64,000 nucleotides of DNA from positions 56,080,722-56,144,721 of the forward strand of contig NC_056000.1 of NCBI RefSeq assembly GCF_018446385.1, read 5' to 3'. The position numbers and the translations under genes were made by a program. Below, one piece after another: positions 1 to 21,394 of the stretch (position 1 is its first letter; every line of letters starts with the position of its first letter). The notes under the pieces are model-generated. The model searched no databases. It was not told the DNA's origin and saw only the letters and a list, made by a program, of their open reading frames with translations. This DNA is from Zingiber officinale. Lineage: Eukaryota; Streptophyta; Magnoliopsida; Zingiberales; Zingiberaceae.

Positions 1-601
1 TGTACTCGAGGTAAAATCCTAGAATTAGGGTTTACTGTAGAAGTCTTGTAGCGTTACTGTAGCAGTACTGTAGCAGTCGACTGATGTACTGTAGCAGAGC
101 CGTTGAGATAGCCGTTGGGCTGGCACCAGTCGACTGGTGCAAGGACCAGTCGACTGGTAACGGGCAAATCAGGTTCTGATTTGTTCCAAGCTCTATAAGA
201 AGGAGCTTGGTATGACCGGCCAAGGTGACGAAATTAGACTTGGTTAAGGTCTAATTAGTAGTCTACAAGTGCTCAAGAGTTTTCCTTGTGTCCAAGAGGT
301 CTTGGTGAGTTTGTGGTGAGGTTTCTCCACCCACAAGGAGTTTGAGCTAGCCGGAGGTCTTCCGGGGAGTAATCCACCGACGGATAGGGATCGTCCACCT
401 TACGGACACGCCGTGGAGTAGGAGCTTTATCTCCGAACCACGTAAATGATCGTGTAGCTTGGTTTGCATTCTTTCTTGTCTTGTATTTTGTTTAGCTTGT
501 TTATTTTTGTATTATTCCGCTGCGCAAGCTAACAACGTAGGAAGTGAACAATTTGGGTGAGCCGCTATTCACCCCCTCTAGCGGGCACATCGGTCCTAAC
601 A
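1..601 (+). mobile_element. LTR1 fragment, 3' part of an LTR, left-truncated by the window
   Basis: Nearly identical to 6348-6958, the 3' part of the complete LTR1. It ends at a canonical CA (tcctaaca at 594-601). It contains a CTGTAG/CAGTACTG microsatellite, several GTCGAC-centred palindromes (for example caccagtcgactggtg) and a TATA-like ctctataag near 191. A 5' LTR should be followed by a primer-binding site; here it is followed at 602 by the interior of a different LTR (LTR2). So this is not a normal 5' LTR/internal junction but a copy of the junction at 6958/6959. Confidence 0.8.
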
Positions 602-1206
602 CTAACTGGAAGTTAGGTAGTGGTAAAGTCCTAGTGAGGAGCTAAGTAAGGGAAAGTTCTGGTGAGGAGCCAGGCAATTGGAAAGTCCAAGCATGTGGTC
701 TTGGTAAGGAAAGTCCTGGTGAGGAGCCAGGCAGTTAGAAAGTCCAAGTGTGATCTTGGCAAAGGAGAAAGTCCTGATGAGGAGCTAGGCAATTGGAAAG
801 TCCAAGTGTGATCTTGGCACAGGTTATAAGTCCAAGCATGTGGTCTTGGCAAAGTAAGTCCAAGTGGTCTTGGCAAGGTAAGCCCTAGTGTGACTTGGCA
901 AGGAGAACTCGACAACTAGGATGATGCTAAAGGAAGCTCTTGAAGGCAAAGCGTGAAGGATGGAGAGATATCCGAGGGACGCAAGGCTGATGGAGGAGGC
1001 TAGAAGGCTAGTTCGAGGTTGGTCAGGTGCGACCAAATGCTAGGCATGGAGGCCCAACATGTCATGGTTGACCAGGAGTTGGGTTGGAGATTTTGGACTT
1101 GAGTTTGAGTCAAGTTCAGGCTGGTCAATCGATCGGGCGATCGATTAAACCAGGGTCCAATCCATCAGTGGATCGATTGGAGTGTACTGCGAAGGAAGGA
1201 ATGGCC
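602..1206 (+). mobile_element. LTR2 fragment, joined to gag at 1206/1207
   Basis: Matches 6959-7563 without any visible indel (constant offset 6357) and 13299-13903. It lacks the first ~240 bp and the last ~780 bp of LTR2. At 1206/1207 the LTR sequence stops abruptly and gag coding sequence begins; about 1 kb present in the related element (rest of LTR2, primer-binding site, gag start) is absent. 602-905 is an array of about eleven short hairpin units. Confidence 0.8.
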
Positions 1207-2760
1207 GATAAGAAGGGTAAACGCCTTCGACCTCGGCATTGGACCGAAGAGCAACGGGAACAAGCGGAGGCCGATAAGAAGGTAACAAAAATCTTGTTAA
1301 ATATATTACCTTCTAACATCCTTTTGAGTGTAGGTGAATACACAAGTGCATGTGATCTTTGGAAAAAGATCATTGTCCATCATGAGAACCCTACACAAAT
1401 CCAAGAAGAGGAGAAGCCCAAGGAGAAGGGCTCATTGGTCCAAGAAGAGAAGGACCAATCGAATGTTGACATAAGTTCAACATTCGAGGAGGAGAAGGAA
1501 GATGAGGAGGTATCATCCACATCTTCAAGGGAGGAAGAAGTGGAATCATCCACATCTTCAAGTGAAGAGGAAGAAGAGAAATCCGAGGAAGAGGAGATCT
1601 TGAAAGCTCAACCCTCCACCTCAACTACCAAGAAGAGCACAAAGGACTGCATCAAATGTTTTGAGTGTGGTAAGATGGGGCACTACAAGAGTAGGTGTTC
1701 TTCACTCAAGAAGGTAAAGGAGGTAAATCCTAAACTCACTAAAGTTAATTTAGAAACTAATGTGAGTTGTAGGAAGAAGAAGAAGGAGAAGAAGCACATT
1801 AGGTGCTTTACATGTGGTGAGTGGGGTCACTACCACACAAAGTGCCCAAGGAAAGGAGAGCTCATGAAATTGGCGTACTTGAAGAAGTGGGAGAAGAAGG
1901 GAGCTTCCAATGTAAAAACCAAGGTATCATTTAATGAATTCATTCCGTTGACACATGATAAAAAGCATGCTAGAAACAACTCTTATCATCTTAATGTTAT
2001 TTATCATGAGAATAGGAGGCATGATAACCTTAAGGATAAATATATTCCTCCTCATGTTAGATTTGCCACACCTAAGGTTAGGAAGGTAAATAACAACTTA
2101 GGCAATAACACCAAGGATTTTAGATATATGCCTAAAAATAGAAATGCTCAAGGATTCAATGAAAAACCAAAATCTAGGGATTTATGGGGTGAAAATCAAG
2201 TCTTGAGGACAAGACTTGATAATTTAGAAAGGACCTTAACAAGAATGGAAAATATTCTTAGGGGTCAAAATGAGCATAACCTAGGAAAAGCTAGACAAGA
2301 GCCATCCAATGGCTATAGAGGTTTGGGATACAAACCTAAAGCCAAGAAGGATGTGACTTCCTTTCATAGGGTTCCATATAGTTATGGGACCAACCCTAGG
2401 TTTAGAGGTCAAGTTAAAGATACTAGGGAAGGAATCCCTAAGAGTATTTTTGGCAAGACCAATGTGACTAAGACTTCTAAGAAGTCCAACAAAGTCACAA
2501 AGAAGGTCACAAAGGAGGCCATCCCTAAAGTTGATCTAATAAAGGTGACTAAGGCTCCAAAAAGGCCTAATAAAGTCACAAATAAGGTTACAAAGGGAGT
2601 TAACCCTAGAAGTGACCTAGTGGAAGTGACCAAGGCTTCTAAGAAGCCAAGAAAGGTCCTTAGGAAGATATCTAGGGAAGTCATCCCTAGTGAGTACCTA
2701 GAGCATCCAAGGAGCACCAATAGGTATTGGGTTCCTAGGAACATATTCTCTACACCCTAG
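1084..2760 (+). CDS. Gag-like protein of a gag-only Copia-type retrotransposon (copy 1, chimeric N-terminus)
   Basis: Open frame of 558 codons. The first ~41 codons are LTR2 sequence read through by chance; true gag similarity starts at DKKGK (about 1207), aligning with the second gag copy at 8539-10110. In order: a partial UBN2/gag-polypeptide domain (LRPRHWTEEQ...DLWKK), a long Glu/Ser acidic tract, two CX2CX4HX4C zinc knuckles (CFECGKMGHYKSRC and CFTCGEWGHYHTKC), a basic Lys-rich segment with repeated VTK..PK.. units, and a C-terminus ending in STNRYWVPR. Known role of such proteins: RNA binding and assembly of virus-like particles. No protease, integrase, RT or RNase H follows. The annotated start is the first in-frame ATG-like codon of the open frame; the native N-terminus is lost. 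A functional protein is doubtful. Confidence 0.7.
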   Translation: MEILDLSLSQVQAGQSIGRSIKPGSNPSVDRLECTAKEGMADKKGKRLRPRHWTEEQREQAEADKKVTKILLNILPSNILLSVGEYTSACDLWKKIIVHHENPTQIQEEEKPKEKGSLVQEEKDQSNVDISSTFEEEKEDEEVSSTSSREEEVESSTSSSEEEEEKSEEEEILKAQPSTSTTKKSTKDCIKCFECGKMGHYKSRCSSLKKVKEVNPKLTKVNLETNVSCRKKKKEKKHIRCFTCGEWGHYHTKCPRKGELMKLAYLKKWEKKGASNVKTKVSFNEFIPLTHDKKHARNNSYHLNVIYHENRRHDNLKDKYIPPHVRFATPKVRKVNNNLGNNTKDFRYMPKNRNAQGFNEKPKSRDLWGENQVLRTRLDNLERTLTRMENILRGQNEHNLGKARQEPSNGYRGLGYKPKAKKDVTSFHRVPYSYGTNPRFRGQVKDTREGIPKSIFGKTNVTKTSKKSNKVTKKVTKEAIPKVDLIKVTKAPKRPNKVTNKVTKGVNPRSDLVEVTKASKKPRKVLRKISREVIPSEYLEHPRSTNRYWVPRNIFSTP

Positions 2761-4391
2761 ATGGGTTTAGAGAGTGTCAACTCCAATTGGAAAGGTAGTT
2801 AACCCAACCTTGGGAAAGTTGACACTTGAGAGCATTTTCAAGGTGATTGTTAACCTTTGAAAATGAAAAGGATGATAAGTGTTACTCTTTGAAAGAGTAA
2901 AATGTGTCAAAATTTGAGGAGTTAAATCTAATTTAAATTGACACACTAGAGAGAAGCAAAAGTAATGCCAAATTTGGAATTCGACATTTTCTTATGGAAT
3001 TAAGGGAAATGTAAACCTTAATCCAAATTGTCACTCTTGGAAAAGAGTAACATGTGGCAAATCTTAAGGAATTATGTTTGAATTAAATTAGCGCAATGTG
3101 GAAAAACATAAGAAATACCAAATTGGGATTTTGGTATCTTCTTAGAGTAATTGAAGAAAAATCTAGGTCATAATGTAAGATGTTCACTCTTTGGAAGAGT
3201 GAAATGTGTCAAACTTAGAGGTTTTGAACTTAATTTAAATTGACACATTTAGAAAAGGATAAGAAATGCCAAGTTGGGGTTTTGATATTTTCTTAAAAGG
3301 TAAAAGGCAAATCTAAGTTTTAATTTGATTTCATTTACTCTTGGAAAGAGTAAAATGTGCCATACTTTGAGAAATTTGTTTAAGTTAAAATGGAACAAAT
3401 TTAGAAAGGAAAAATAAATGTCAAAATTGAGTTTTGACATTTTCATGGAAAATCATGGGCAATTTAGGGTTAAATTTTGAGTTAGCTAGGGTTAAGAATA
3501 CTTAGATAGGTAATCTAGGTAAATTTTATTTATGCTAACTTGCCATGTTTTGTTTGCCTATCATATGTCATGACATCATATTTATATTTAACATTCATAT
3601 TTTATTATGAAAAATACAAAAATACCATGTCATGTCATACATACATCATGTAACTATAGCTTGCTTTTCATTTTGAAAATTGCTTATTTTGATGTATGTC
3701 ATGTAACATCATGCATTACTTTAATTCCCTTGTTATTTAAGGATAGATGGCATCTATTATAAATGGTAAATATCCCAACAAGAGGGATTATATCAAGTGG
3801 CATCCTAGATGGATGATCATGATTTTTACAATGCCTAGATAGAGATGCATGATCCCTTAGTTTAGGGCAAGACCAAATATACATCTCACAAAGAACTATA
3901 AGGTGACTTGTATGTGTTTTAATACACGTTAGATACAAGTGAAATGTTAAGATGGTGAACTAAACTCAAGATGTTGATCTAGTGCATCTTGTTGAGTTTT
4001 AGGTTCATCAAAACACATAGTTATGTGTCTTCCAATCATTGGGAAAGCTAATGTACAAGTCATGTGCATTGAGCCCAAAGAACGTGGTTGGATATTGGTT
4101 TTGAAAATGATTTCAAAATACTTTTGAAAAACCTTGGTGAAGACTATCTTTTGATAGTAATCATCATTGAAAAGTTAGATACAAATTAGGAGAAAACATT
4201 GAATTTTTCAAGAGTTTTCAAATTTGTTTCAATCTTTGAAAATAGGAAGTATTTTCATAGAAAACTATTTTTCCCTGATAAAGTATACCCTAAATAATGT
4301 TTACATGAGTTTTCATGATGAAAACAAGTATGGATTGGTTAAGAAAAACTAAAGTGAAGTTTCGGTTGAGGTTTAGTTTCATTATTAAATT
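2761..4391 (+). other. Non-coding internal region of gag-only element 1
   Basis: No pol motif or convincing ORF in any frame. The sequence is AT-rich and consists of loosely repeated phrases (for example variants of tcttggaaagagtaaaatgtg and ttaaattgacaca roughly every 100-200 bp). It is collinear with 10111-11720 of element 2, so this is a conserved non-coding part of the family and not random sequence. Confidence 0.6.
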
Positions 4392-4841
4392 TTGAACCTC
4401 AAAACTTCGAGTTTTGGTTTTCCTAATTATTTAGAAACCCTAAGTCATTGTTGGTGCAATGATGGAAGTTTGACCATATTTTTAGGGGGAGTTAGCTTTG
4501 GAAACATAAAAATCTTTTCCAAGACCAAAAGGAGGTCAAGTGTTAAGGTAGCACATGACATTGGTATGAGAGGTGTTACCAAGGACAAGAGAGAGTCATC
4601 CAAGGCTAATAAGAAGGAATATGCTAGGGTAGCATATAATTATAGCAAGGATGAGGTGTCTAAGATTAAGGACAAGAAGAAATTAATCAAAGACAAGGTG
4701 TCTAAGGTTAAGAATGTGAGTTTAGTAGGCCAAGTGTCACCCGAGGTGCATCGAAGTGACCTAGCCATAGTGGATGAGTCACCAAGAGAGGTGACTAAGG
4801 TTAAGATTCCTAAGGATAGGAAGAACTTTTGGGACCCATGA
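4392..4841 (+). CDS. Small Lys-rich ORF of unknown function inside element 1
   Basis: Frame of 149 codons. I recognise no domain. The second half is very basic (repeated KDK, SKVK, TKVK) and ends KIPKDRKNFWDP, resembling in composition the basic tail of the gag ORF upstream. It may be a displaced remnant of the gag C-terminal spacer left after pol was lost, or a chance frame in Lys-rich repeat DNA. The equivalent part of element 2 (around 12240) has no matching long ORF, which argues against a conserved protein. Confidence 0.3.
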   Translation: MNLKTSSFGFPNYLETLSHCWCNDGSLTIFLGGVSFGNIKIFSKTKRRSSVKVAHDIGMRGVTKDKRESSKANKKEYARVAYNYSKDEVSKIKDKKKLIKDKVSKVKNVSLVGQVSPEVHRSDLAIVDESPREVTKVKIPKDRKNFWDP

Positions 4842-5890
4842 TAGATGGATTATCAAATGTGCCAAGTGATTAAGAGACAAACTTAAGTCTCTAACCTAGT
4901 GGGTTGGCACAATTGGGATGTGTTTCATGCATGAAAATATGACATTGGAGGTCATATTGCATAAAAATTAGCTTTTGATGTATAGATGTCATATAAACCC
5001 ATGCTATGGAAGTATTGTGATTTAGTATGGGCAGATACATCAAGAGGAAGCCAAAACTAGGACTTTAGGTCAATATTCAATTGAACTTTTTAGCTAGTTT
5101 TGAATTTTGTGTCAATCTTGGGATCTGTGATAAATATATTTTTATATATATTTTTCCCAAGTAGACAAGGGTACAATAGACCTCTCCACAAAATTTGGGG
5201 ATTTTTGGAGGTCTAGGGAATTTCTGGTGCATTTCTGAAGTTGACCTGAAAAGGCTAATTTTTGCAGAAATAGAGTGCCAGTCGACTGGTGCAGATACCA
5301 GTCGACTGGTAACAGTATTTTTGAGCACAGAATGTTTCTGTAACTGGTGCCGATACCAGTCGACTGGTAACAGTAGATTTCGACCACAGAATGCTTCTGT
5401 AAGGTTCTGTCGAAGGGGGCAGTCGACTGGTACCTAGTTCAGTCGACTGATACCAGCCTAAAAGTGTTTTTCAACGTTGTTCTTCACCGTGTCAACTCGT
5501 TTAAATGTATGAGATCCATGGGGGATAAATACATGAGTTTAGGGTCAATTTGGATGACATGTTTTCAATAATTGAGATATTGTTGGAGGTCTTTTTGATG
5601 TATGGCAAAGGGGGAGAAGTCTAGGTTTAAGTGGGAAACCTATACACCTTTGCGAGAAATCCTAACTCGAGGGAGATCTTAGGTGAAGGGGGAGCAATTG
5701 TTTAGGCAAAGGGGGAGAAGTTTACCTTTGCGAAAAATCCTAGCTCAAGGGGGAGCTTAGGTGAAGGGGGAGCCTAGGGATTTAGGTTCCATTATTTATG
5801 CATGAGTTGATTTGCATATTTATTTGCATATGTATTGCATTTATGTTTCCCTAACTTAAACAGGTTGCTAAACATCAAAAAGGGGGAGAT
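4842..5890 (+). other. 3' internal region of element 1 with GTCGAC palindromes and polypurine tract
   Basis: No gene. About 5276-5455 holds five copies of a GTCGAC-centred palindrome (ccagtcgactgg and extensions), the same motif as in LTR1. 5590-5780 has repeated gcaaagggggagaag phrases. The region ends with a polypurine tract aaaaagggggaga (about 5876-5889) immediately before the TG of the 3' LTR1, the expected plus-strand primer position. It is homologous to 14680-15108. Confidence 0.65.
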
Positions 5891-6958
5891 TGTTGGAGCA
5901 ATCTAGGTGCCCTAAGTTTTGATGTTTGGGCAAAGGTTTAAGTTAGGTTTATTGTTGTATTTGATATGCATTGTGAGTGTGCAGGATACAGGTACAACAA
6001 GGAAAGTCCAAGGGTGAGTCTTGGCGGTGTAAGTCCAAGCATGTAGTCTTGGCAACGTAAGTCCAAGTGTGATCTTGGAAAAGGAGGAAAGTCCAAGGAT
6101 GAGTCTTGGCGGTGTAAGTCCAAGCATGTAGTCTTGGCAACGTAAGTCCAAGTGTGACTTGGCAATAGATGAAGTCCCGGAGGCGCGACCTCTTGGCAAA
6201 GGAAGACCCGACAACAATGACAAGGCCGATGGAAGCTCCAGAAGGCAAGACGTGAAGGATGGGGAGGCATCCGAGGGACGCAAGGCTGATGGAGGAGGCT
6301 AGAAGGCTAGGTCTAGGTTGGTCGGGCGAGAACGAGTGCTGAGTGAATGTACTCGAGGTAAAATCCTAGAATTAGGGTTACTGTAGCAGCACTGTAGCGT
6401 TACTGTAGCAGTACTGTAGCGTTACTATAGCAGTCGACTGATGTACTGTAGCAGAGCCGTTGAGATAGCCGTTGGGCTGGCACCAGTCGACTGGTGCAAG
6501 GACCAGTCGACTGGTAACGGGCAAATCAGGTTCTGATTTGTTCCAAGCTCTATAAGAAGGAGCTTGGTATGACCGGCCAAGGTGACGAAATTAGACTTGG
6601 TTAAGGTCTAATTAGTAGTCTACAAGTGCTCAAGAGTTTTCCTTGTGTCCAAGAGGTCTTGGTGAGTTTGTGGTGAGGTTTCTCCACCCACAAGGAGTTT
6701 GAGCTAGCCGGAGGTCTTCCGGGGAGTAATCCACCGACGGATAGGGATCGTCCACCTTACGGACACGCCGTGGAGTAGGAGCTTTATCTCCGAACCACGT
6801 AAATGAACGTGTAGCTTGGTTTGCATTCTTTCTTGTCTTGTATTTTGTTTAGCTTGTTTATTTTTGTATTATTCCGCTGCGCAAGCTAACAACGTAGGAA
6901 GTGAACAATTTGGGTGAGCCGCTATTCACCCCCTCTAGCGGGTACATCGGTCCTAACA
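5891..6958 (+). mobile_element. LTR1, complete 3' LTR of element 1 (1068 bp)
   Basis: Starts TGTTGGAGCAATC directly after the polypurine tract and ends TCCTAACA, so it has canonical TG...CA ends. 6001-6200 contains hairpin units of the form gtCCAAG-loop-CTTGGc, including a larger ~87-bp direct repeat. Downstream are CTGTAG microsatellite and GTCGAC palindromes, then a TATA-like ctctataag near 6550. It is followed directly by LTR2 sequence, as at 601/602. The first 5 bases after it, ctaac, also occur at the corresponding site of complete LTR2 (13299-13303). This fits insertion of element 1 into an LTR2 copy, but the left flank needed to prove a target-site duplication is outside the window. 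Confidence 0.8.
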
Positions 6959-8340
6959 CTAACTGGAAGTTAGGTAGTGGTAAAGTCCTAGTGAGGAGCT
7001 AAGTAAGGGAAAGTTCTGGTGAGGAGCCAGGCAATTGGAAAGTCCAAGCATGTGGTCTTGGTAAGGAAAGTCCTGGTGAGGAGCCAGGCAGTTAGAAAGT
7101 CCAAGTGTGATCTTGGCAAAGGAGAAAGTCCTGATGAGGAGCTAGGCAATTGGAAAGTCCAAGTGTGATCTTGGCACAGGTTATAAGTCCAAGCATGTGG
7201 TCTTGGCAAAGTAAGTCCAAGTGGTCTTGGCAAGGTAAGCCCTAGTGTGACTTGGCAAGGAGAACTCGACAACTAGGATGATGCTAAAGGAAGCTCTTGA
7301 AGGCAAAGCGTGAAGGATGGAGAGATATCCGAGGGACGCAAGGCTGATGGAGGAGGCTAGAAGGCTAGTTCGAGGTTGGTCAGGTGCGACCAAATGCTAG
7401 GCATGGAGGCCCAACATGTCATGGTTGACCAGGAGTTGGGTTGGAGATTTTGGACTTGAGTTTGAGTCAAGTTCAGGCTGGTCAATCGATCGGGCGATCG
7501 ATTAAACCAGGGTCCAATCCATCAGTGGATCGATTGGAGTGTACTGCGAAGGAAGGAATGGCCCAATCGATTGGTCGATCGATTGAGACCATAATTCGCG
7601 AGCACAGAGGCCTTCCCAATCGATCAAGTGATCGATTGGGAGCTGCGGATCGATCAGCCGATCGATTGGGCAGGGGAGTTCTCGCGCGATCGCGAGAACA
7701 CATAAAGTTTCTAAATTGATCCACCGATCGATTCAAATGTTCCCAATCGATCGGTCGATCGATTGTGATTCGACAGTTGGGCAGGATGCAGGTGATGCAC
7801 GGCTGCGATGAAGCGGTGCTAACGTGGCAATCGATTGGGGATGGATTGGATCGATTGGGAGCACAGTTTAAAGCCTTGGCGGTGCGTTTTCTCCGTAGAA
7901 CTTTGTGTTCCTCTCCTACGAGCTTACAGCGATTCTCACGGTGATTTCTCCAACACTCACGCTAGTTATTGAAGGCACTTGAGGAGCATCTTCAAGGTTC
8001 AAGAGGCAACAACAAGTAGCAAGAAGAAAGGGTATTCACTTGTATTCCTAGGGTTTCTTCTTGTATTTGTGTTTGTGTTATGTGTGAGTTTGTACGAGGC
8101 TTCTCCGCCTCCGACCGAGAAGGAGTGTTTCATAGTGGAGATAGCGTGTCGTGTGTGGATCCTTGGATTAGTCACCTCTTCTTGAGGTGGATACCGAGTA
8201 AACCCTAGGTGTTAGCATGTTGGTTTGTTGTGTGTTTGTATTTTATTTTCCGTTGCATATCAAGACGAAGCAAATCAACACAAGCGCGAAGAAACGCTAT
8301 TCACCCCCCCCCCCCTCTAGCTGGCATAAAGGTCCCTACA
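6959..8340 (+). mobile_element. 5' LTR2 of element 2, missing its first ~240 bp
   Basis: Aligns with 13299-14679 of the complete 3' LTR2. It ends ...ggtccctaca at 8340, two bases before a primer-binding site. 6959-7262 is the hairpin array; 7481-7866 holds about ten ATCGAT-centred palindromes such as caatcgattggtcgatcg; a C-tract precedes the 3' end near 8303-8315. The missing 5' end was probably displaced when element 1 inserted. Confidence 0.8.
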
Positions 8341-8342
8341 AT

Positions 8343-8355
8343 TGGTATCAGAGTG
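8343..8355 (+). promoter_or_regulatory. Primer-binding site of element 2
   Basis: TGGTATCAGAGTG, two bases after the LTR end, matches the usual plant primer-binding site complementary to the 3' end of initiator methionine tRNA (TGGTATCAGAGC). Confidence 0.85.
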
Positions 8356-8412
8356 AGGCCGCTCTTCTACGGACTAATCGCCAAGAGAGCAAGAAGCTAG
8401 AGGAAGAAGAAG

Positions 8413-10110
8413 ATGAATTTGGAAGGACCACTCAGATGGGACATCCAGATTCCACCTCCGTATGACAAAGAGGACTTCAATTTTTAAAGAACTCGGTTGG
8501 AGACATAGTTTCAAATGGATTGGAACCAATGAGTTATTTTGGAGGACCCATTTGAAGCTCCAACGGATAAGAAGGGTAAACACCTCCGACCTCGACATTG
8601 GACCGAGGAACAAAGGGAGCAAGCGGAGGCGAATAAGGAGGTAACCAAAATTTTGCTAAATTTATTACCTTCTAATATAATTTTGAATGTAGGTGAATGC
8701 ACGAGTGCAAATGATCTTTGGAAAAAGGTCATTGTCTATCATGAGAATCCCACTCAATTTCAAGGAGTAGATGAGCCTAAGGAGAAGGGCTCATTGGACC
8801 AAGAAGAGAAGGACCAATCTGATGTTGACATAAGGTCAACATTCGAGGAGAAGAAGGAAGAGGAGGAGAAGGAAGAAGATGAGGAGAGATCATCCACATC
8901 TTCAAGAGAGGAAGAGGTGGAAGCATCCACATCCTCAAGGGTTGAAGAGGTGGAAGCACCCATATCCTCAAGAGGAGAAGAAGAAGAAGATGATGCAACC
9001 TCCACAATGCAAGCTACATCAAATAGAGAATCAAACATCATCCCTACAAGCAAAGGTATAGGAACTTCAATTGAAAATAATAAAAATCATATCATTTGCT
9101 TTGAGTGTAGGGAGCATGGGCACTACAAGAGTAAGTGCCCCAAATTGACCAAGAAGAAGGGCCAAGTAGTACCCAAGGGCAAGGAGAAGCCCAAGGAGAT
9201 TGGTCCCACAGAACGTAAGAGCAAGAAGCACATTGTGTGCTTCTCATGCAATCAAAATGGGCATTACCGGAGTCAATGCCCTAAAGGGAAGAAGCCAATC
9301 AAAGTTAGAGGAGGAAGCACAAGTCTAGGGGGAGCTTTTAAGAGCAAATCCAAGGTAACATTTAATGACGCAATTCCTTTTAGAAATGGTAAAGAGCATG
9401 TTAGAAATAAGGTACATCATTTAAATGCTAATTGCCATGAGATTAGAAGGTATGATAGAAGTAAGGACAAATATATTTCTCCTCATGCTAGATTTATCAC
9501 ACCTAAGGCTAGGAAGGTAGATAATTACTTAGGCAATAACTCTAAGGATTATAGATATATGCCTAAAAATAGAAATGCTCATAGGGGTCAAGAAAAATCC
9601 AAGTCCATGGATTTAATGACGGAGAACCAAGTCTTGAGGTCAAGACTTGATACCTTAGAAAGAACCCTAGCAAGAATGGAAAACATACTTAAGGGTCAAA
9701 ATGAGCCTAACCTAGGAAAGTCTAGACAAGAGCCATCCAATGGCTATAGAGGTTTGGGATACAAACCTAAAGTCAAGAAGGATGTGACTTCCTATTATTG
9801 GATTTCATATAGCTATGAAACCAAACCTAAATCTAGTGGTCAAGCTAAAAATACTAGGGAAGTCATCCCTAAGAGTACTTTTGTCAAGACCAAGGTGACT
9901 AAGGCTCCAAAAAGGTCAAATAAAGTCACAAAGAAGGTTACAAGGGAAGGTATCCCTAGAAGTGACCTAATGGAAGTGACCAAGGCTTCTAAGAAGCCTA
10001 GAAAGGTCATTAGGAAGGTATCTAGGGAAGTCATCCCTATTGAGTACCTAGAGCATCCAAGGAGCACCAATAGGTTTTGGGTTCCTAGGAGCATATTCTC
10101 TACAACCTAG
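8413..10110 (+). pseudogene. Gag-like protein of element 2, interrupted near its N-terminus
   Basis: An ATG at 8413, 70 bp after the primer-binding site, starts a plausible gag N-terminus (MNLEGPLRWDIQIPPPY). The frame is closed by TAA at 8485-8487, and gag-like coding continues in another frame until about 8550. From 8539 it returns to the first frame and stays open for 523 codons to 10110. The long part has the WTEEQ...DLWKK gag segment, Glu/Ser-rich acidic tract, two CX2CX4HX4C knuckles (CFECREHGHYKSKC, CFSCNQNGHYRSQC), a Lys-rich VTK/PK region and the STNRFWVPR C-terminus. It is clearly related to, but diverged from, the copy at 1084-2760. No pol follows. As it stands the ORF start is broken, so this copy is probably inactive. 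Confidence 0.75.
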
Positions 10111-12381
10111 ATGAGTTTAGAGAGTGTCAACTCTAATTGGAAAGGTAGTTAACCCAACCTTGGTAAAGTTGACACTTGAGAGCATTTTCAAGGTTATTGT
10201 TAACCTTTGAAAATGAAAAGGAGTATTGGGGTACTATTTGAAAGAGTAATATATGTGCCAAAATTTGAAGAGTTAAAGTTAATCTAAATTGGCACACTTA
10301 AGAAAAGTATAAGAAAAATCAAGTTAGAATTTTGATACTTTCTTAAGAAATTAAGAGAAAATCCATGCTTTAATCAAATATGATTAAGCCTTGAAGAGCA
10401 AAAAGGTGCCAAGTTTTGAGGATTTGTAATTAGGTTAAAATTGGCACACTTAAAGGAAAACCATAAGAGATACTAAATTGAGATTTTGGTGTTCTCTTAA
10501 TGGGCTAAGTGAAATGTAAACATTAATCCAAATTGTCATTCTTGGAAAGAGTAACATGTGCCAAATCTTAATGAATCATGTGTAAATTAAATTGGCACAA
10601 GTTAGAGAATCACATGAACTACCAAGTTGGGATTTTGGTATGTTCTTAGGGAGTAAAGGGCAAATTTAGGCTTAAAATATAAGGCGATTACCCTTTCGGA
10701 AGGATAAATATGCCAAAATTTGAGGAATGTGCTTAATTTTTAATTGGCATAAATAAATCAAGAGATTAAAGAAATGTCAAGTTGGGGTTTGACACTTTCT
10801 TGATGAAATTGGGCAATCTAGGATTTAATTTTAAGATTAGCTAAGGTTTAAGGACACTTAGATAGGCAATCTAGGTATCTTATGTATGTTAATTTGCCAT
10901 GCTTTGTTTGCCCATCATATGTCATGACATCATATTTATTTTTGCATTCATGATTATTATGAAAAATATAAAAATATCATGTCATGTCATACATACATCA
11001 TGTAGTTATAGGAAATTTTCTTTTGAAAATTATTTCTTGTTGATGTATGTCATAACATCATGCATTATTTTAATTTCCTTGTTATTAAGGACAAATGACA
11101 TATATTTTAAATGTTAAATATCCCAACAAGCGGGATGACACCAAGTGACATCCTAGGTGGATGATCACAAGTCTCTTAATGCCTAGATAGTTATGCATGA
11201 TCCCATAGTTGATTTAGTGCATCTCACAAAGGATCATAAGGTGACTTGTATATGTTTTAGTACACATTAGATACAAGTGAGATGTTAGAATGGTGAACAA
11301 AACTCAAGATGTTGATTTAGTGCATCTTGTTGAGTTTTATGTTCATCAAAACACATAGTTATGTGTTTTTCAATCATTGGGAAAGCTAATGTACAAGTCA
11401 TGTGCATTGAGCCCAAAGAACATGGTTGGATATTGATTTTGAAAATAATTTTAAAATACTTTTTGAAAACCTTGGTGAAGACTATCTTTTGATAGTAATC
11501 ATCATTGGAAAGTTAGACACAAACTAGGGAAAAACATTGAAGTTTTCAAGACTTTTCAAGTTTGTGTCAATCTTTGAAAGTATGTAGTATTTTAATAGGA
11601 AACTATTTTTCCTTGATAAAGTATATTCTAAATAATGTCTATATGAAGTTTCATGATTTTTAGAATTGTGTAGAATTCTTGGGGAGTTTCTGAATTTCGT
11701 TGAAATTGAATTTCAGGAAATCAGAAACTCAATCGATCAACCGATCGATTGGGATGGTTTCGATCGATCAGTCGATCGATTGGGAAGTCCATTCCTGCCA
11801 ACAGAAGGTTAGTGAATCGATCAGCTGATCGATTGACCCAGGATGGATCGATCAGTCGATCGATTCAGAGGGAATCTCTGCAAGCAGTAGCTTGCGGAAT
11901 CGATCAATGGATCGATTGAAGTGATTTCAATCGATTGAGTCCCAACTTCAATCGATTGGAAGTCTGATTTTGGCTGAAAAAGCCTGATTTCTGCACTTCA
12001 AATCACTTCGAGTCCCAATAACCATTCCTAACCCCTTGGAATATATTTGTATACATTTAGGGAGAGTTTTCATTATGAAAGCAAGTATGGATTGGTTAAG
12101 GTAGACTTAGGTGAAGTTTAGGTTGGGGTTTAGTCTCATTATTGAATTTTGAGCCTCAAAACTTCAAGTTTTGGTTTTCCTAACTGTTTAGGAACTCCAA
12201 GTCATTGTTGGTGTAGTGACAGAAGTTTGACCATATTTTTAGGGGGAGTTACTCCTTGAATGCATAAAAAAATTTATCTTTAAGGACCTTGGAAGGGGGT
12301 TAAACCTTCGTGTTGGATAATACTCAGGGTCGAGTATTGGGGAGCAATGGAAGATTGGTTATCTTCGTTGTTAGAATGATA

Positions 12382-12640
12382 AATGCTCTCGGATGAGCAT
12401 TGTGGAGTAGATTACTACTCAATGGGGAGCATTAGATTAATGAAGGGGATCAGACCTTCATTGATAGAGTGAAAAATGCTCTTGGATGAACATTGAGAAG
12501 AAGATTACTGCTCAAGGGGGAGCATTAAATACAATGAATGGGAGTTTCATTGGGAAGTTGATGCATGCTCTAGGATGAGCATTGTGAAGTGAAGTAGAGT
12601 TCAAGGGGGAGCTTTGGCGGCAATGAAGAATATAAGATCT
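12382..12640 (+). repeat. Imperfect ~90-bp tandem repeat, about three copies
   Basis: Phrases of the type aatgctct.ggatgagcatt followed by ggggagcatta recur at 12382, 12475 and 12564 (spacings 93 and 89). Each copy also carries complementary gctc/gagc blocks that could form a stem. Confidence 0.6.
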
Positions 12641-12844
12641 TCATTGTAGAGTTGTTAACAACATGTGAGGTTGTAAACAACGTAGAGTTAACTCTTATGG
12701 AGAAGAGTTTATTTTCTAATTTGATGTGTGGCAAAGGGAGAGAATGGAAGGTTAAGTTAGACCTTCATCCCAAGCGGGGGGAGTTTGCCTTTTAGGAAAG
12801 GGAGAGAATGAAGGAAACCTTCATTCATGTCTTGTCATGAAAGG

Positions 12845-13021
12845 GTTAAGGATATGCGATTTAGCTTTGTGATAAAGAAGAGGTTAAGACTATGAGATTT
12901 AGCCTTGTGATAAAGAAGAAGTTAAGGCTATGGGATTTAGCCTTGTGATAAAGAAGAAGTTAAGGCTATGGGATTTAGCCTTGGTATAAAGAAGAGATTA
13001 AGGCTATGAGATTTAGCCTAA
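12845..13021 (+). repeat. 38-bp tandem repeat, five copies
   Basis: gttaaggctatgggatttag-type units start at 12845, 12883, 12921, 12959 and 12997, an exact 38-bp period with few mismatches. The array ends about 25 bp upstream of the polypurine tract of element 2. Confidence 0.85.
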
Positions 13022-13058
13022 CTTAGAGGTATTGTCAAACATCAAAAAGGGGGAGATT

Positions 13059-14679
13059 GTTGGGGCAATTTCCTTTGGTTAAGTTTGACCAGTTTGACTA
13101 AGCTTGAGTCGGGATTTGAGTTTTGATGTTTGACAATATAAGGAGATTGACAATATAAGGAGATTGTTGGAGCAATCACCCGGTTATGGAGATGGTCAAA
13201 GGGTTGACCAGGTTGATAAGAAGACAAGTCAAATAGGTCAGGGATGACAGGAGACTTGACTGGGTAAGTCCTAACTGGAGGTTAGGCGTCTGGAAGTCCT
13301 AACTGGAAGTTAGGTAGTGGTAAAGTCCTAGTGAGGAGCTAAGTAAGGGAAAGTTCTGGTGAGGAGCCAGGCAATTGGAAAGTCCAAGCATGTGGTCTTG
13401 GTAAGGAAAGTCCTGGTGAGGAGCCAGACAGTTAGAAAGTCCAAGTGTGATCTTGGCAAAGGAGAAAGTCCTGATGAGGAGCTAGGCAATTGGAAAGTCC
13501 AAGTGTGATCTTGGCACAGGTTATAAGTCCAAGCATGTGGTCTTGGCAAAGTAAGTCCAAGTGGTCTTGGCAAGGTAAGCCCTAGTGTGACTTGGCAAGG
13601 AGAACTCGACAACTAGGATGATGCTAAAGGAAGCTCTTGAAGGCAAAGCGTGAAGGATGGAGAGATATCCGAGGGACGCAAGGCTGATGGAGGAGGCTAG
13701 AAGGCTAGTTCGAGGTTGGTCAGGTGCGACCAAATGCTAGGCATGGAGGCCCAACATGTCATGGTTGACCAGGAGTTGGGTTGGAGATTTTGGACTTGAG
13801 TTTGAGTCAAGTTCAGGCTGGTCAATCGATCGGGCGATCGATTAAACCAGGGTCCAATCCATCAGTGGATCGATTGGAGTGTACTGCGAAGGAAGGAATG
13901 GCCCAATCGATTGGTCGATCGATTGAGACCATAATTCGCGAGCACAGAGGCCTTCCCAATCGATCAAGTGATCGATTGGGAGCTGCGGATCGATCAGCCG
14001 ATCGATTGGGCAGGGGAGTTCTCGCGCGATCGCGAGAACACATAAAGTTTCTAAATTGATCCACCGATCGATTCAAATGTTCCCAATCGATCGGTCGATC
14101 GATTGTGATTCGACAGTTGGGCAGGATGCAGGTGATGCACGGCTGCGATGAAGCGGTGCTAACGTGGCAATCGATTGGGGATGGATTGGATCGATTGGGA
14201 GCACAGTTTAAAGCCTTGGCGGTGCGTTTTCTCCGTAGAACTTTGTGTTCCTCTCCTACGAGCTTACAGCGATTCTCACGACGATTTCTCCAACACTCAT
14301 GCTAGTTATTGAAGGCACTTGAGGAGCATCTTCAAGGTTCAAGAGGCAACAACAAGTAGCAAGAAGAAAGGGTATTCACTTGTATTCCAAGGGTTTCTTC
14401 TTGTATTTGTGTTTGTGTTGTGTGTGAGTTTGTACGAGGCTTCTCCGCCTCCGACCGAGAAGGAGTGTTTCATAGTGGAGATAGCGTGTCGTGTGTGGAT
14501 CCTTGGATTAGTCACCTCTTCTTGAGGTGGATACCAAGTAAACCCTAGGTGTTAACGTGTTGGTTTGTTGTGTGTTTGTATTTTATTTTCCACTACATAT
14601 CAAGACGAAGTAAATCAACGCAAGCGCGAAGAAACGCTATTCACCCCCCCCTTCTCTAGCTGGCACAAAGGTCCCTACA
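13059..14679 (+). mobile_element. LTR2, complete 3' LTR of element 2 (1621 bp)
   Basis: TGTTGGGGCAATT...GTCCCTACA, canonical TG...CA ends, preceded by a polypurine tract. It carries the hairpin array (13265-13602), ATCGAT palindromes (13821-14207) and a C-tract near the end. It matches 6959-8340 closely from 13299 onwards. Downstream (14680) lies the internal 3' region of another element (element 3), so element 2 appears to be inserted in element 3. Confidence 0.85.
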
Positions 14680-15108
14680 AAGTTTTCAACAATTGGGATA
14701 TTGTTGGGAGCTTTTTGATATTAGGCAAAGGGGGAGAAGTAAGGTTTAGTTGGGAAAACCTTAAGTGACTTTGTGTAGGGGGAGCCTTATGATAGATTCT
14801 TAAATATCTCTGTGATAAAATTCCTAGCTCAATGGGAAGCTTAGGTGTAGGTGGAGCCTTGGGATAGGTTCTAATGCTTGGTGCATTTTCCCATTTCGAC
14901 GGTGTAAGTCCAAGTGTGTAGTCTTGGCAACGTAAGTCCATTCGGCGGTGTATATCCAAGTGTGTAGCCTTGGCAACGTAAGTTCATTGAGCAATGTAAG
15001 TCTAAGTGTGTAGCTTTGACAACATAAGTCCATTTGTTTTAGCATATTTATTTGCTATTATGTTTTCCCTAACTTAAACGTATTGCCAAATATCAAAAAG
15101 GAGAAGAT
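14680..15108 (+). mobile_element. 3' internal fragment of element 3 (gag-only family)
   Basis: Starts gttttcaacaattgggatat, homologous to the region from about 5562 of element 1, and includes the gcaaagggggagaag phrase, three hairpin units with diverged stems (14905-15035) and a degenerate polypurine tract (aaaaaggagaagat) just before LTR3. No coding sequence. Confidence 0.65.
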
Positions 15109-16096
15109 TGTTGGAGCAATTCCAATGGTCCGTGCGACCATGTGTTTTGGTGTTTGGGCAAAGGGTTTAAGTTAGATTTACCCTTGTATTTGATATGTGT
15201 ATATGAGTGTGCAGGTTTGCAAGATACACATATGACTCAGCTTGATACCTTCGGGTCCGGTGAAGGATAAGCATCCGAGGAACCGTGGACAAAGCAGTAA
15301 GGACAAGGGCCGAGGGACTAGCCGCGGGCTTGGGTGCATCCGAGGGACGAGAGCCAAAAGAAGTAGGCTTGAAGGCAAGAGATCAAAGCTGCAACGAAGA
15401 GTCCAGTGAGTCGTAAGGGTGAGGGTCCGAGTGCTGAGAGATTGTACTCGGGTACCAATCGACAGGTGGTTTCATCAGTCGACTGGTGTAGTCGAATGGG
15501 CAGTCGACTGGGAGCGAACACAATGCTTCTGTTCGCTCGACCAGTGTGGAGCAGTTGACTAGTACTTTTACTAGTCGACTGGTATCAAGCCGTTGGGATG
15601 TAACGGTCGAATCTCCACAGAGGACTGTCGACTGATGATTTTGCCAGTCGACTGGTATGCGGGGTTTTCCAACCCGTGGCCTATATAACCAAGGCTTGAG
15701 AGCTTGGTTATAGTTGACGAAATTGGACTTGGTTAAAGTCTAATTAGTAGTCTACCAGTGCTCAAGGTTTCCCTTGTGTCCAAAAGGTCTTGTTGAGTTT
15801 GTGGCGAGGTTTCTCCACCCACAAGGAGGTTTGAGCTAGTCGGAGTTTCCGGGGAGTCATCCACCGATGGATCGGAATCGTCCACCTTACAGACAACCAT
15901 AGAATAGGAGCCTTATCTCCGAACCACGTAAATCGGCGTGTCGATTTGTTTGTATTTTTTCCTTTAGTATTTAGCTTTCGTATTTGTGTTTATATTATTG
16001 TATTTTCGCTTGCGCAACTAACAAATACGTAAGAAGCGATTATTTGAGGACGTCGTCTATCTAACCCCTCTTCTAACTGGTCATCGATCCCCTACA
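15109..16096 (+). mobile_element. LTR3, 3' LTR of element 3 (988 bp)
   Basis: TGTTGGAGCAATTCC...GATCCCCTACA with canonical ends after a polypurine tract. Its second half is clearly similar to LTR1 (tgtactcg..., GTCGAC palindromes at 15475-15655, ttgacgaaattggacttgg, ccaccgatggatcggaatcgtccacc). ctatataac near 15681 is a likely TATA box. It is a diverged relative of LTR1. The matching 5' LTR is not in the window. Confidence 0.75.
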
Positions 16097-17375: not shown

Positions 17376-18309
17376 GGTAATTTATCAAATCACGCACCTA
17401 GATATCTTAATTGACCAAAAGGTGTATGCTACTTTGGTATTTACCAAATGACGCACTTTTTCAAGTGCACTTCCCTTTTTATCCTTCTGACCAATCAAAC
17501 TTTTTTTTTTGTCGTTTTCTTTTCTCCCTCTTCTCTTTCCTATCTCCTCTTTCATCAATGACATTTAAAATTTAGTTAATTTTTAAATAACATTTTAATA
17601 CATTTAGAGAAGCTAAAATAAACTATGAATATCAAATTTGAACTCCTTGCAATATCAGGAATCTACAGGAACTGAAATGGGTGTAATCTGAGGTCTCTAG
17701 GTCCATCAGTGGGTTTCGGTCAAAACCCACTGATGGACATAGAGAGCTCCGATTGCACCCATTTCAGTTTCTATAGATTCCTGGTGTTGCAAGGAGTTCA
17801 AATTTGCTATCCATTATTTATTTTAACTTTTAGAAGGTGTTAAAATATAAGAAAAAATAATCAGCAAAAAAAATTCATATCAGACCCAACGTGAGCCTGA
17901 TATGATTCATATCAGACCTAACGTGGAGCCTTTTTGTTGATTCTTTCTTCTTATATTTTAACACATTCTAAAAGTCAAAATAAATAATGGATAGCAAATT
18001 TGAACTCCTTGCAATACCAGGAATCTATAGAAACTGAAATGAGTGCAATCGGAGCTCTCTAGGTCCATCAGTGAGTTTTGACTGAAACTCACTAATGGAC
18101 CTAGAGACTCAGATTACACCCTTTTCAGTTCCTGTAGATTCCTGATGTTGCAAGGAGTTCAAATTTGCTACTCATAGTTTATTTTTACTTTTAAAAGGTG
18201 TTAAAATATAAGAAGAAAGAATCAGCAAAAAGGCTCCACGTTAGGCCTGATATGAATCATATCAGGCCCACGTTGGGCCTGATATGATTCCATATCAGGC
18301 CCAATGTGG

Positions 18310-19045
18310 ATCTCAGTCTATTAGAAATGCTCAACTGTTTTAGGAACTCTTCATTTCATAATGGATGTGTTTATGATTGCTCTAAGTAGAAAAATAGATA
18401 AGGGCATCAATGGATATCCTCCTACATAAATGTTTCAGCTAGTGATGAAATCAAGTGGAAAAAGACAGTAGCAAAACATTGAGAGTTCTCTGACAAATTA
18501 GAGAATGTATAATGTTTCATTACCTATAAGAAATACATATGCAAACACTTAGAACAAATAGTCATAGTATAGTTATTGAAAAAAGAGAAGATACGTATAA
18601 TTCCAATAAATAGAATTGACACAATACCAGATAGACCTAATTCTTCTATTAGCATGTAACTGCAAATAAGTCATGACTCACTTATTTCTTCTTTATTTGT
18701 AAAAGAAAATTAATCAAGAAAATGAGATCACTTACGAGAAATAAGGGAAAAGGACAAAGAGACACCACTCCAAATTCTGAAGGCTGAAAGAAAAGTGTGT
18801 CAATTATTTAAATGGAAAAAAGATACCGAGCAAAAGGTAGAGGAATTACAAAAATCGTTACTTTTCAATATCCAATCCAGCATATTTGAAGAGGTATTTG
18901 GCAGTTAAGGTTTTTCCGCATAATTTTTCAAACCCCCAACAAAGACAAACATCATGAATTGAGATTTAAGTCAAAATAAAATGCTACATTGGAAATGAAG
19001 AGTTCCTAAAATAATTGAGCATTCCTAATAGAGTGAGATCCACAT
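18310..19045 (+). repeat. Left-arm nested module with ~640 bp unique core
   Basis: An inverted repeat (ctattagaaatgctcaactg at 18319 and the complement near 19005-19030) flanks about 640 bp of sequence not built from the palindromic units. The whole module occurs inverted at 19895-20640. The core has no long ORF and I could not assign its origin. Confidence 0.7.
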
Positions 19046-19894
19046 TGGGCCTGATATGGAATCATATTAGGCCCAATGTGGGCCTGATATGATTCATATC
19101 AGGCCTAACGTGGAGCCTTTTTACTGATTCTTTCTTCTTATATTTTAACACATTCTAAAAGTCAAAATAAACAATAGATAGCAAATTTGAACTCCTTGCA
19201 ACATCAGAAATCTACAGGAACTGAAATGGGTGTAATATGAGGTCTCTAGGTCCATTAGTGAGTTTTGGTCAAAACCCACTGATGGGCCTAGAGAGCTCCG
19301 ATTGCACCCATTTCAGTTTCTATGGATTCCTGGTGTTGCAAGGAGTTCAAATTTGGATAATACAAGAAGAAAGAATCAGCAAAAACAATTCATATCAGGC
19401 CCATTTTGGGCCTGATATGAATCATATCAGGTCCACGTTGGGCCTGATATGAATCATATCAGGTCCACGTTAGGCCTGATATGGAATCATATCAGGCCCA
19501 ACGTGGGCCTGATATGATTCATCAGGCCTAACGTGGAGTCTTTTTGCTGATTCTTTCTTCTTATATTTTAACACATTCTAAAAGTTAAAATAAATAATGG
19601 ATAGCAAATTTGAACTCCTTGAAACACCAGGAATCCATAGAAACTTAAATGGGTGCAATCGGAGCTCTCTAGGTCCATCAGTGAGTTTTGACCTAGAGAC
19701 CTCAGATTACACACATTTCAGTTCCTGTAGATTCCTAATGTTGCAAGGAGTTCAAATTTGCTATCCATTGTTTATTTTGACTTTTAGAATGTGTTAAAAT
19801 ATAAGAAGAAAGAATTAGCAAAAAGGCTTCACATTAGGCCTGATATGAATTATATCAGGCTCACGTTGGGCCTGATATGATTCCATATCAGGCC

Positions 19895-20640
19895 CAATGT
19901 GGATCTCACTCTATTAGGAATGCTCAATTGTTTTAGGAACTCTTCATTTCCAATGTAGCATTTTATTTTGACTTAAATCTCAGTTCATGATGTTTGTCTT
20001 TGTTGGGGGTTTGAAAAATTATGCGGAAAAACCTTAACTGCTGAATACCTCTTCAAATATGCTGGATTGGATATTGAAAAGTAACGATTTTTGCAATTCC
20101 TCTACCTTTTGCTCGGTATCTTTTTTCCATTTAAATAATTGACACACTTTTCTTCCAGCCTTCAGAATTTAGAGTGGTGTCTCTTTGTCCTTTTCCCTTA
20201 TTTCTCGTAAGTGATCTCATTTTCTGGATTAATTTTCTTTTACAAATAAAGAAGAAATAAGTGAGTCATGACTTATTTGCAGTTACATGCTAATAGAAGA
20301 ATTAGGTCTATCTGGTATTGTGTCAATTCTATTTATTGGAATTATACGTATCTTCTCTTTTTTCAATAACTATACTATGACTATTTGTTCTAAGTGTTTG
20401 CATATGTATTTCTTATAGGTAATGAAACATTATACATTCTCTAATTTGTCAGAGAACTCTCAACGTTTTGCTACTGCCTTTTTTCACTTGATTTCATCAC
20501 TAGTTAAAACATTTATGTAGGAGGATATGCATTGATGCGCTTATCTATTTTTCTACTTAGAGCAATCATAAACACATCCATTATGAAATGAAGAGTTCCT
20601 AAAACAGTTGAGCATTCCTAATAGACTGAGATCCACATTG
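19895..20640 (-). repeat. Right-arm inverted copy of the nested module
   Basis: Reverse complement of 18310-19045 with few differences (for example cggaaaaaccttaactgctg here versus a ...ctgcca... variant in the left copy). Together the two copies form the bulk of the foldback stem. Confidence 0.7.
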
Positions 20641-21394
20641 GGCCTGATATGGAATCATATCAGGCCCAACGTGGGCCTGATATGATTCATATCAGACATA
20701 ACGTGGAGCCTTTTTGCTGATTTTTTCTTATTATATTTTAACACCTTCTAAAAGTCAAAATAAACTATGAATAGCAAATTTGAACTCCTTGCAATATCAG
20801 GAATCTACAGGAACTGAAATGGGTGCAATCGGAGCTCTCTAGGTCCATCAGTAGGTTTGATATGATTCATATCAGGCCCAACGTGGGTCTGATATGAATT
20901 TTTTTTGCTGATTCTTTCTTCTTGTATTTTAACACCTTCTAAAAGTCAAAATAAATAATGGATAGCAAATTTGAACTCCTTGCAACACAAGGAATTTATA
21001 GAAACTGAAATGGGTGCAATCGGAGCTCTCTAGGTCCATTAGTGGATTTTGACCGAAACTCACTAATGGACCTAGAGACATCAGATTACACCCATTTCAG
21101 TTCCTGTAGATTCGTGATGTTGCAAGGAGTTCAAATTTGCTATTCATAGTTTATTTTAGCTTCTCTAAATGTATTAAAATATTATCAAAAAATTAACTAA
21201 ATTTTAAATGTCGTTGATGAAAGAGGAGATAGAAAAGAGAAAAGAGAGAAAAGAAAACGACAAAAAAAAAGCTTGATTGGTCAGAGGATAAAAAGGGAAG
21301 TGCACTTGAAAAAGTGCATCTTTTGGTAAATACCAAAGTAGCATATATTTTTTGATCAATTAAGATATCTAAATACATGATTTAATAAATTACC

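Follow-up and report, generated by a model that had tools for sequence, protein, structure and literature searches.

The described repeats that come closest to those reported here are the RM boxes of Sireviruses, palindromic repeats of the long terminal repeat (LTR) that are associated with CpG islands before the TATA box (Bousios et al. 2010, PMC2829016). As tabulated in that work, each element carries one motif, with identities of 66.5–100%, and a CGG-CCG core is present in 12 of 13 elements, the published exception being Tnd-1. The same source describes an inverted repeat that encloses the polypurine tract of Sireviruses and may form secondary structure beside it. Cis-regulatory and siRNA roles have been proposed for Sirevirus palindromic LTR repeats (PMC2829016, PMC10760457, PMC5311732). 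In maize, where Sireviruses are cited as 21% of the B73 genome (PMC10760457), small RNAs are reported in excess on the palindrome clusters of Sirevirus LTRs (PMC10760457, PMC5311732). The central maize work (Bousios 2016), as the same two papers cite it, concerns LTR palindromes that evolve fast and have a predicted secondary structure.

Here we examined a 64,000-nucleotide stretch of the Zingiber officinale genome (the window), in which two nested elements, A and B, carry arrays of short hairpin units. Like RM boxes, which are described as high-copy, dyad-symmetric repeats of the upper LTR half and, in some elements, the linker (PMC2829016), these units are numerous and symmetric. They differ in lacking the CGG-CCG core, in showing four stem types in B arrays rather than one motif per element (array A is nearly uniform), and in lacking a CpG island, with a CpG observed/expected ratio of 0.06 in array B and 0.61 in array A. 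The maize palindromes have a different motif, CACCGGACNNNGTCCGGTG; they are set apart here by the descriptions in the citing papers alone, and those descriptions mention no array in which stem types changed in a compensatory way (PMC10760457, PMC5311732). The inverted repeat around the tract is single, has arms of 28 bp on average and encloses the tract, unlike an array of small stems (PMC2829016). Among the titles and abstract openings listed in literature searches, and the Sirevirus palindrome papers apart, no such array is described. The remark in the original prediction that it knew of no described function has to be set beside the roles proposed for Sirevirus palindromes, although the motifs in those accounts differ from the present ones.

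RESULTS

Nested Sirevirus-type elements carry the arrays

The first 16 kb of the window holds nested Sirevirus-type Ty1/copia elements. The features of the window used below are as follows.

1–601, forward strand: element A LTR (3′ part), interpreted as the 5′ one, with its start at −456 in locus L003
602–905, forward strand: copy of the LTR B array with its first unit cut, identical to 6959–7262
5891–6958, forward strand: element A 3′ LTR; element A interrupts hairpin unit 2 of LTR B (sequence reading, locus L003)
6004–6207, forward strand: related array of LTR A, 7 units, six of them CCAAG/CTTGG (unit table)
6959–7262, forward strand: array of the element B 5′ LTR, with element A before it (sequence comparison and unit table)
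6959–8340, forward strand: 5′ LTR of element B from array unit 2 onward (sequence alignment and reading)
8341–8353, forward strand: primer-binding site ATTGGTATCAGAG, after the LTR end CTACA (sequence reading)
12844–13019, forward strand: 38-bp tandem repeat AAGGCT..AGCCTT in the element B linker, just upstream of the polypurine tract
13048–13059, forward strand: polypurine tract AGGGGGAG of element B with the AT/TG attachment site (sequence reading)
13058–14679, forward strand: 3′ LTR of element B (TGTTGGGGCAATT...CCCTACA), starting after the polypurine tract and AT and ending in CTACA
13266–13612, forward strand: hairpin array of LTR B (3′ LTR), 12 units of the form AAGT-[CC...GG]-CA (unit table, shuffle control, homologues)
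about 13860–14210, forward strand: palindromes of the CAATCGATCGATTGG type in LTR B, apart from the hairpin array and shortly before TTTAAA at 14207
14906–15034, forward strand: degenerate linker-type array (element C), upstream of a polypurine tract
40742–40964, forward strand: degenerate array of a more distant family, with the long-loop unit CCTAGCA..TGCTAGG

Several Sirevirus hallmarks were found in these elements. Further octamers of the AGGGGGAG type lie in the linker at 12241, 12515, and 12604; the Sirevirus junction of 5′ LTR and primer-binding site is present, with the core of the site at 8343, as is the polyC integrase signal close to the LTR end, with C-runs before TCTAG at 8304 and 14644; and zf-CCHC domains occur in stop-to-stop frames of 525 and 562 aa, as in the large Sirevirus Gag with its zinc knuckle. 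A gag-like frame with a zinc knuckle was found in the internal regions of both A (1207–5890) and B (8354–13047). When a 272-aa copia reverse transcriptase fragment of another element in the window was used as a tblastn query, its sole match within the window was itself, with no match in either internal region. Elements A and B may be non-autonomous.

The order of insertion could be read from the borders. The LTR of element A starts at −456 in locus L003, directly following ...AAGTCCTAAC, and its 3′ LTR ends at 6958, followed by CTAACTGGAAG; the target-site duplication is therefore CTAAC, at 6959–6963, with the far-side copy in L003. Element A (−461 to 6963) interrupts the LTR B hairpin unit exactly at the border of arm and loop, and a weak palindrome preference of such insertions is reported (PMC6911290). 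A tandem duplication relating 1–1206 to 6348–7563 was considered and dropped, as L003 has array unit 1 and the target duplication before the first A LTR. Past that LTR come 605 bp of B LTR, a junction at 1206/1207, and the gag-like frame, an order that likely arose when copying was primed from the LTR and then switched to gag.

Of the two LTR copies of B, 13299–14680 aligns with 6959–8341. Positions 602–1206 are the same as 6959–7563, with 0 differences over 605 bp, and each differs from 13299–13903 by 1 base, so the arrays at 602, 6959, and 13299 were counted as one. The three array stretches of the original prediction are all present, but as copies of a single LTR segment.

Elsewhere in the window, 24593–25082 and 30444–30951 are similar to each other and are probably LTRs of another copia element; they carry a different, hairpin-capable tandem repeat, CTGGTCTtccgctctgcAGACCAG, ~300 bp downstream of a TATA-like motif. 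The region 17376–21394 is dense in direct and inverted repeats (e.g., 17376–17920 against 21394–20852 at 92%) and holds TGATATGAATTCATATCA-like palindromes.

Structure of the arrays

In the intact array at 13266–13612, every unit consists of aagt, an arm opening with CC (TC once), a loop of 4–8 nt and a complementary arm, followed in most units by ca or ta, at a spacing of 24–30 bp. Watson-Crick pairing is 5/5 in 7 of the 12 units, 4/5 in four and 3/5 in one. About 11 units remain at 602–905, where the first is interrupted by the insertion of the other element. Units, their aagtCC openings and stems had all been predicted, and all were confirmed.

We counted hairpins with a 5-bp stem and a 3–12 nt loop against dinucleotide shuffles. 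Array B had 7, where 1.6–1.8 were expected, and 0 of 300 shuffles had as many; 2 of the 7 are formed by TTGGAAAGTCCAA between units and are not unit stems. Array A had 6 against a shuffle mean of 0.88 (0/300 as many), with its last unit, CCCGGAGG..CCTCTTGG, pairing at 3/5 only. A milder excess over their own shuffles was also seen in control stretches (14 against 7.8 in the rest of LTR B, 4/300 as many; 29 against 18.7 in the internal region, 2/300 as many), so this test is weak by itself. The degenerate element C array gave 2 perfect hairpins (37/300 shuffles as many) and the 38-bp repeat at 12844–13019, which can form hairpins, gave 3 (28/300). None was found at 40742–40964 at the loop limit of 12 nt, the long-loop unit there having a loop of ~20. 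Another possible pairing, between a spacer and the 5′ arm that follows it (TTGGAAAGTCCAA in B), was set aside because it is absent from the spacers of array A.

Folding was among the checks named with the original prediction. Local folding z scores in the arrays were −2.3 to −6.4 on both strands, bar one antisense value of −1.3; values were also low outside them, at −3.3 and −3.8 just after the array and −3.0 for gag antisense. Folded whole as one RNA, the array had z scores of −1.65 (sense) and −1.30 (antisense), with −2.80 for DNA, and global folding of the whole array is uninformative.

The arrays are abundant and diverse in the genome

We then searched the window's own genome (3.09 Gb, 211 contigs; the window matches C15:56080722–56144721), in which such arrays belong to abundant Sirevirus-type Ty1/copia elements. 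With array B as the query, there were 3,209 first-look candidates, and the best 40 scored gave 51 matches. An exact 22-base unit had no match in viral contigs, and Rfam covariance models gave 0 matches at E ≤ 0.1 in 12300–15300.

Thirty-seven B-family loci were retrieved and their arrays read, with 9 to 21 unit starts per locus (the count for L049 includes a second array). Four units recur across them: CCTAAC-tggaN-GTTAGG, CCTAG-tgaggag-CTAGG, CCTGG-tgaggag-CCAGG, and CCAAG-tgtgat-CTTGG. Other families show further stems in the common frame, namely CCAAGT/ACTTGG and CCAAGC/GCTTGG (L036), CCAGCTA/TAGCTGG, CCAGAC/GTCTGG, and CCTAGCA/TGCTAGG (L093), CCTGGT/ACCAGG, CCAGT/ACTGG, and CCTAGGG/CCCTAGG (L035), and CCAACaggaagGTTGG (L066). 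Overall, CCAAG, CCTAA, CCTAG, and CCTGG are the commonest. In the units read, stems are 5–7 bp long and loops range from 4 to about 27 nt. Some long-loop units (L088, L093) have a second inner stem, e.g., GGTCA/TGACC inside CCAAGTG/CACTTGG.

Unit types differ in stem sequence and keep their own pairing

Pairing between unit types was assessed by swapping 3′ arms. Units were collected with the pattern AAG[TC][CT][CT], by which the outer C's are pre-selected and the 3′ arm is never consulted. For 89 clusters of distinct units, with duplicate loci still included, the own-pairing total was 330 against a permutation mean of 291.1 (sd 6.3, maximum 319), a total matched by 0 of 20,000 permutations, and perfect 5/5 stems numbered 28 against a mean of 5.7 and a maximum of 15. 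Once duplicate loci, including L092, L095, and L097, which repeat other places, had been removed, 40 clusters opening CC remained, and 0 of 5,000 permutations reached the observed value for arms of 5, 6, or 7. The coarsest clustering (12 clusters) gave modest support, with 125, 8, and 183 of 5,000 permutations for these arm lengths.

A second test considered pairs 3–5. Among 607 units opening CC, 150 without GG[CT][AG] were left out, and the 457 with a recognisable end, which still included the repeated loci, were exactly complementary at these pairs in 349 cases. The exact complement was the commonest partner for 7 of 19 distinct 5′ triples, against a permutation mean of 0.94 and a maximum of 5.

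One change could be followed in detail, as CCTAG/CTAGG and CCTGG/CCAGG have the loop TGAGGAG in common, so that one pair differs on both sides. At this pair 4, the 149 units with that loop (fetched loci and window) were G-C in 93, A-T in 32, G-T in 14, A-C in 8, and G-A in 2; this count and the triple test include all three window copies of array B. A free-arm pattern matched 7,114 genome sites, against 5 for the reversed control. The first 100 of these were G-C in 69, A-T in 16, G-T in 7, A-C in 5, and other in 3. As in the other pattern searches, these were the first 100 places listed, all on one contig (C1). Pair-4 sites share ancestry, so Fisher values on them are not probabilities of independent events, and the pair-4 change may be one event. 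The covariation between unit types is real and exceeds the arm-swap controls. In several families, unit types diverged while their own pairing stayed, which suggests that folding itself was kept.

Copies of single units decay

Change of stem sequence with pairing kept, as originally predicted, holds between unit types; between copies of one unit it does not. No double change was seen in either of two orthologous units, across 170 and 222 pair cells. At the same 100 unselected genome sites, pairs 1 and 2 had no compensatory double change, pair 3 had one and pair 5 had one, these two being in matches that look unrelated, and there were many single transitions at pairs 1, 2, and 5. Single stem transitions on the sense strand (pairs 1, 2, 4, and 5 summed) gave G.U 43 times and A.C 53 times, so G.U was not favoured. 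In one orthologous unit, the stem was no more conserved than its surroundings (variability 0.032 against 0.022 for the loop and 0.018 for the flank), and in the other it was more conserved (0.029 against 0.081 and 0.087).

The units with one mismatch that the original prediction listed do exist, and they have the look of decayed forms: in the 149 units, CCTAG plus the loop TGAGGAG is completed by CTAGG in 24 cases and by CTAAG in 3. At 26 of 37 B loci, the last B unit reads CCTAG-tgtga-CTTGG and so contains a T.T mismatch; together with the uncompensated decay of copies this marks the constraint as loose. Present-day variation is mostly uncompensated. The covariation is thus a trace of divergence among unit types in the past, and most copies today are simply decaying.

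The arrays lie beside the polypurine tract

The exact junction of tract and LTR, AAAAGGGGGAGATTGTTGGAGCAA, occurs 2,740 times in the genome (1,404 and 1,336), against 0 for the control. We took the first 30 listed places, unselected (L009–L038), two of which are 266 bp apart. At least two AAG[TC]CC were present in the linker (−300 to 0) at 21 of 30 junctions and in the LTR (+50 to +500) at 7; both regions had at least two at 1 junction, neither did at 3, and at 20 the linker had at least two and the LTR fewer. At least one fully paired (5/5) unit was nearby, in linker or U3, at 29 of the 30. The sense hexamer outnumbered its reverse by 113 to 2 at −500 to −1, and by 32 to 22 at +100 to +399. 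The reverse motif GG[AG]CTT also clusters in the 30 loci, with 45 at −1400 to −701 and 19 at +200 to +299.

The linkers have 99 unit starts, and 34 of them pair 5/5, against a mean of 14.2 and a maximum of 22 when arms are swapped; 46 are CCATT, which does not pair, and 39 are CCAAG. In C-type junction linkers (e.g., L013, L017), paired CCAAG alternates with unpaired CCATT, the AAGTCC opening being retained without a stem. The 32 LTR unit starts, 23 of them CCAAG, show no excess, with 21 pairing 5/5 against 20.2 when swapped, because nearly all are CCAAG. As about half of the linker starts are non-pairing and the paired stems are nearly all CCAAG/CTTGG, the junction sample fixes position, not covariation.

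The distance from array to tract ranges from about 70 to 400 bp. Within the LTR, the array starts at +208 in B and +113 in A (published RM clusters start 200–400 bp into the LTR), and both U3 arrays are upstream of TATA-like motifs, at 14207 and 6551, respectively. By the ordinary layout of LTR elements, linker and U3 would both be near the 3′ end of the genomic RNA. An array found only in the linker is internal, which places it outside the region upstream of the 5′ LTR promoter but would keep it in the RNA.

A separate palindrome zone in LTR B

The zone at about 13860–14210 contains CAATCGATTG-like palindromes resembling the published Tnd-1 RM, ACAATCGATTGT (PMC2829016). Its CpG observed/expected ratio is 1.41, against 0.06 in array B; in LTR A, the contrast between array (0.61) and palindrome zone (0.75) is small. 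The published Sirevirus palindromes thus appear as a second array in LTR B, separate from the hairpin array.

DISCUSSION

The firm part of this analysis goes no further than stem types with retained pairing in the vicinity of the polypurine tract. For what lies behind it, we lean tentatively to an RNA-level stem-loop array that would serve as a multivalent binding site for protein, as judged from sequence. A modular array of short stem-loops adjoins the tract, in linker or U3, of Sirevirus-type Ty1/copia elements; its units multiply through tandem duplication, and their types have diverged, with their own pairing kept, in several families. As both positions are near the 3′ end of the genomic RNA, we infer that the selected form would be RNA, or single-stranded minus DNA copied from it. 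The AAGTCC...GGCA frame together with a closed stem may then be recognised by a Gag zinc knuckle or by an RNA-binding protein of the host, with a role in export, packaging, or stability. Retroviral constitutive transport elements, stem-loop RNAs near the 3′ LTR and near the 3′ end of the genomic RNA, are proposed only as a functional analogue. Packaging was one guess of the original prediction; an array in U3 or linker would sit outside any 5′ packaging region, near the other end of the RNA.

The arrays could instead act at the DNA level, as palindromic protein-binding sites in U3 that extend the Sirevirus palindromic modules upstream. Clustered palindromes upstream of TATA are described in Sirevirus LTRs (PMC2829016), the A and B arrays have that position relative to the motifs at 6551 and 14207, a protein could read the constant AAGTCC/GGCA frame, and CpG ratios barely separate array A from its palindrome zone (0.61 and 0.75). 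Yet a factor reading bases would not need stems that differ between types with pairing kept, the two zones of LTR B are far apart in CpG (0.06 against 1.41), and 20 of 30 junctions have two or more unit starts in the linker against fewer than two in the LTR. Promoter repeats would suit the U3 families and not the linker ones, and we consider this explanation unlikely, if still a serious one. Somewhat less probable is mutation without selection, in which quasipalindrome correction by template switching, whether in reverse transcription or in replication, makes and re-perfects short stems and slippage at hairpins multiplies units. Stems and multibase compensatory changes can arise this way in one event (PMC8794818), unit starts vary from 9 to 21 over the 37 B loci (L049 with its second array included), and present stem variation is mostly uncompensated decay. 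Against this, pairing in the units read ends at the constant CC/GG boundary and leaves the AAGT beyond it unpaired; in 27 of 30 junctions, unit starts keep to the neighbourhood of the tract even though they switch between linker and U3; and the common T.T mismatch has been left uncorrected.

Two further roles are less likely than an RNA array, promoter repeats, or template switching. The folded array may be a substrate for host silencing and a source of small RNA, as proposed for maize Sirevirus LTR palindromes, on whose clusters small RNAs are in excess (PMC10760457, PMC5311732). The stems here are 5–7 bp, which makes small-RNA production from single units, another role floated in the original prediction, unlikely. 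Dicer acts on a duplex far longer than such stems, and we hold silencing to be improbable. Slightly more improbable still is a structure of the DNA intermediate, in which hairpins flanking the tract would help to specify plus-strand priming or cause reverse transcription to pause. Unit starts do lie close to the tract on either side, and the inverted repeat around the tract has been proposed to aid primer formation (PMC2829016), but the array lies anywhere from about 70 to 400 bp from the tract, and such a task hardly seems to need multiple units.

Taking the RNA-level array further, many Sireviruses of this plant could carry an undescribed RNA element, a stem-loop array that switches position around the polypurine tract, in which the AAGTCC...GGCA frame and the pairing are conserved and units evolve their own stems in several families. 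We regard this wider claim as doubtful, more so than the binding-site reading itself.

Sireviruses form a large part of some plant genomes, and the role of their fast-evolving non-coding repeats is at stake. The array, with its many units in each of thousands of copies, supplies its own test of covariation. Such arrays could decide whether structure is selected and at which level, whether RNA, DNA, or mutation bias, and they are a natural test case for compensatory change through template switching. If the wider claim is true, they would amount to a repeat-based RNA recognition code of plant retrotransposons.
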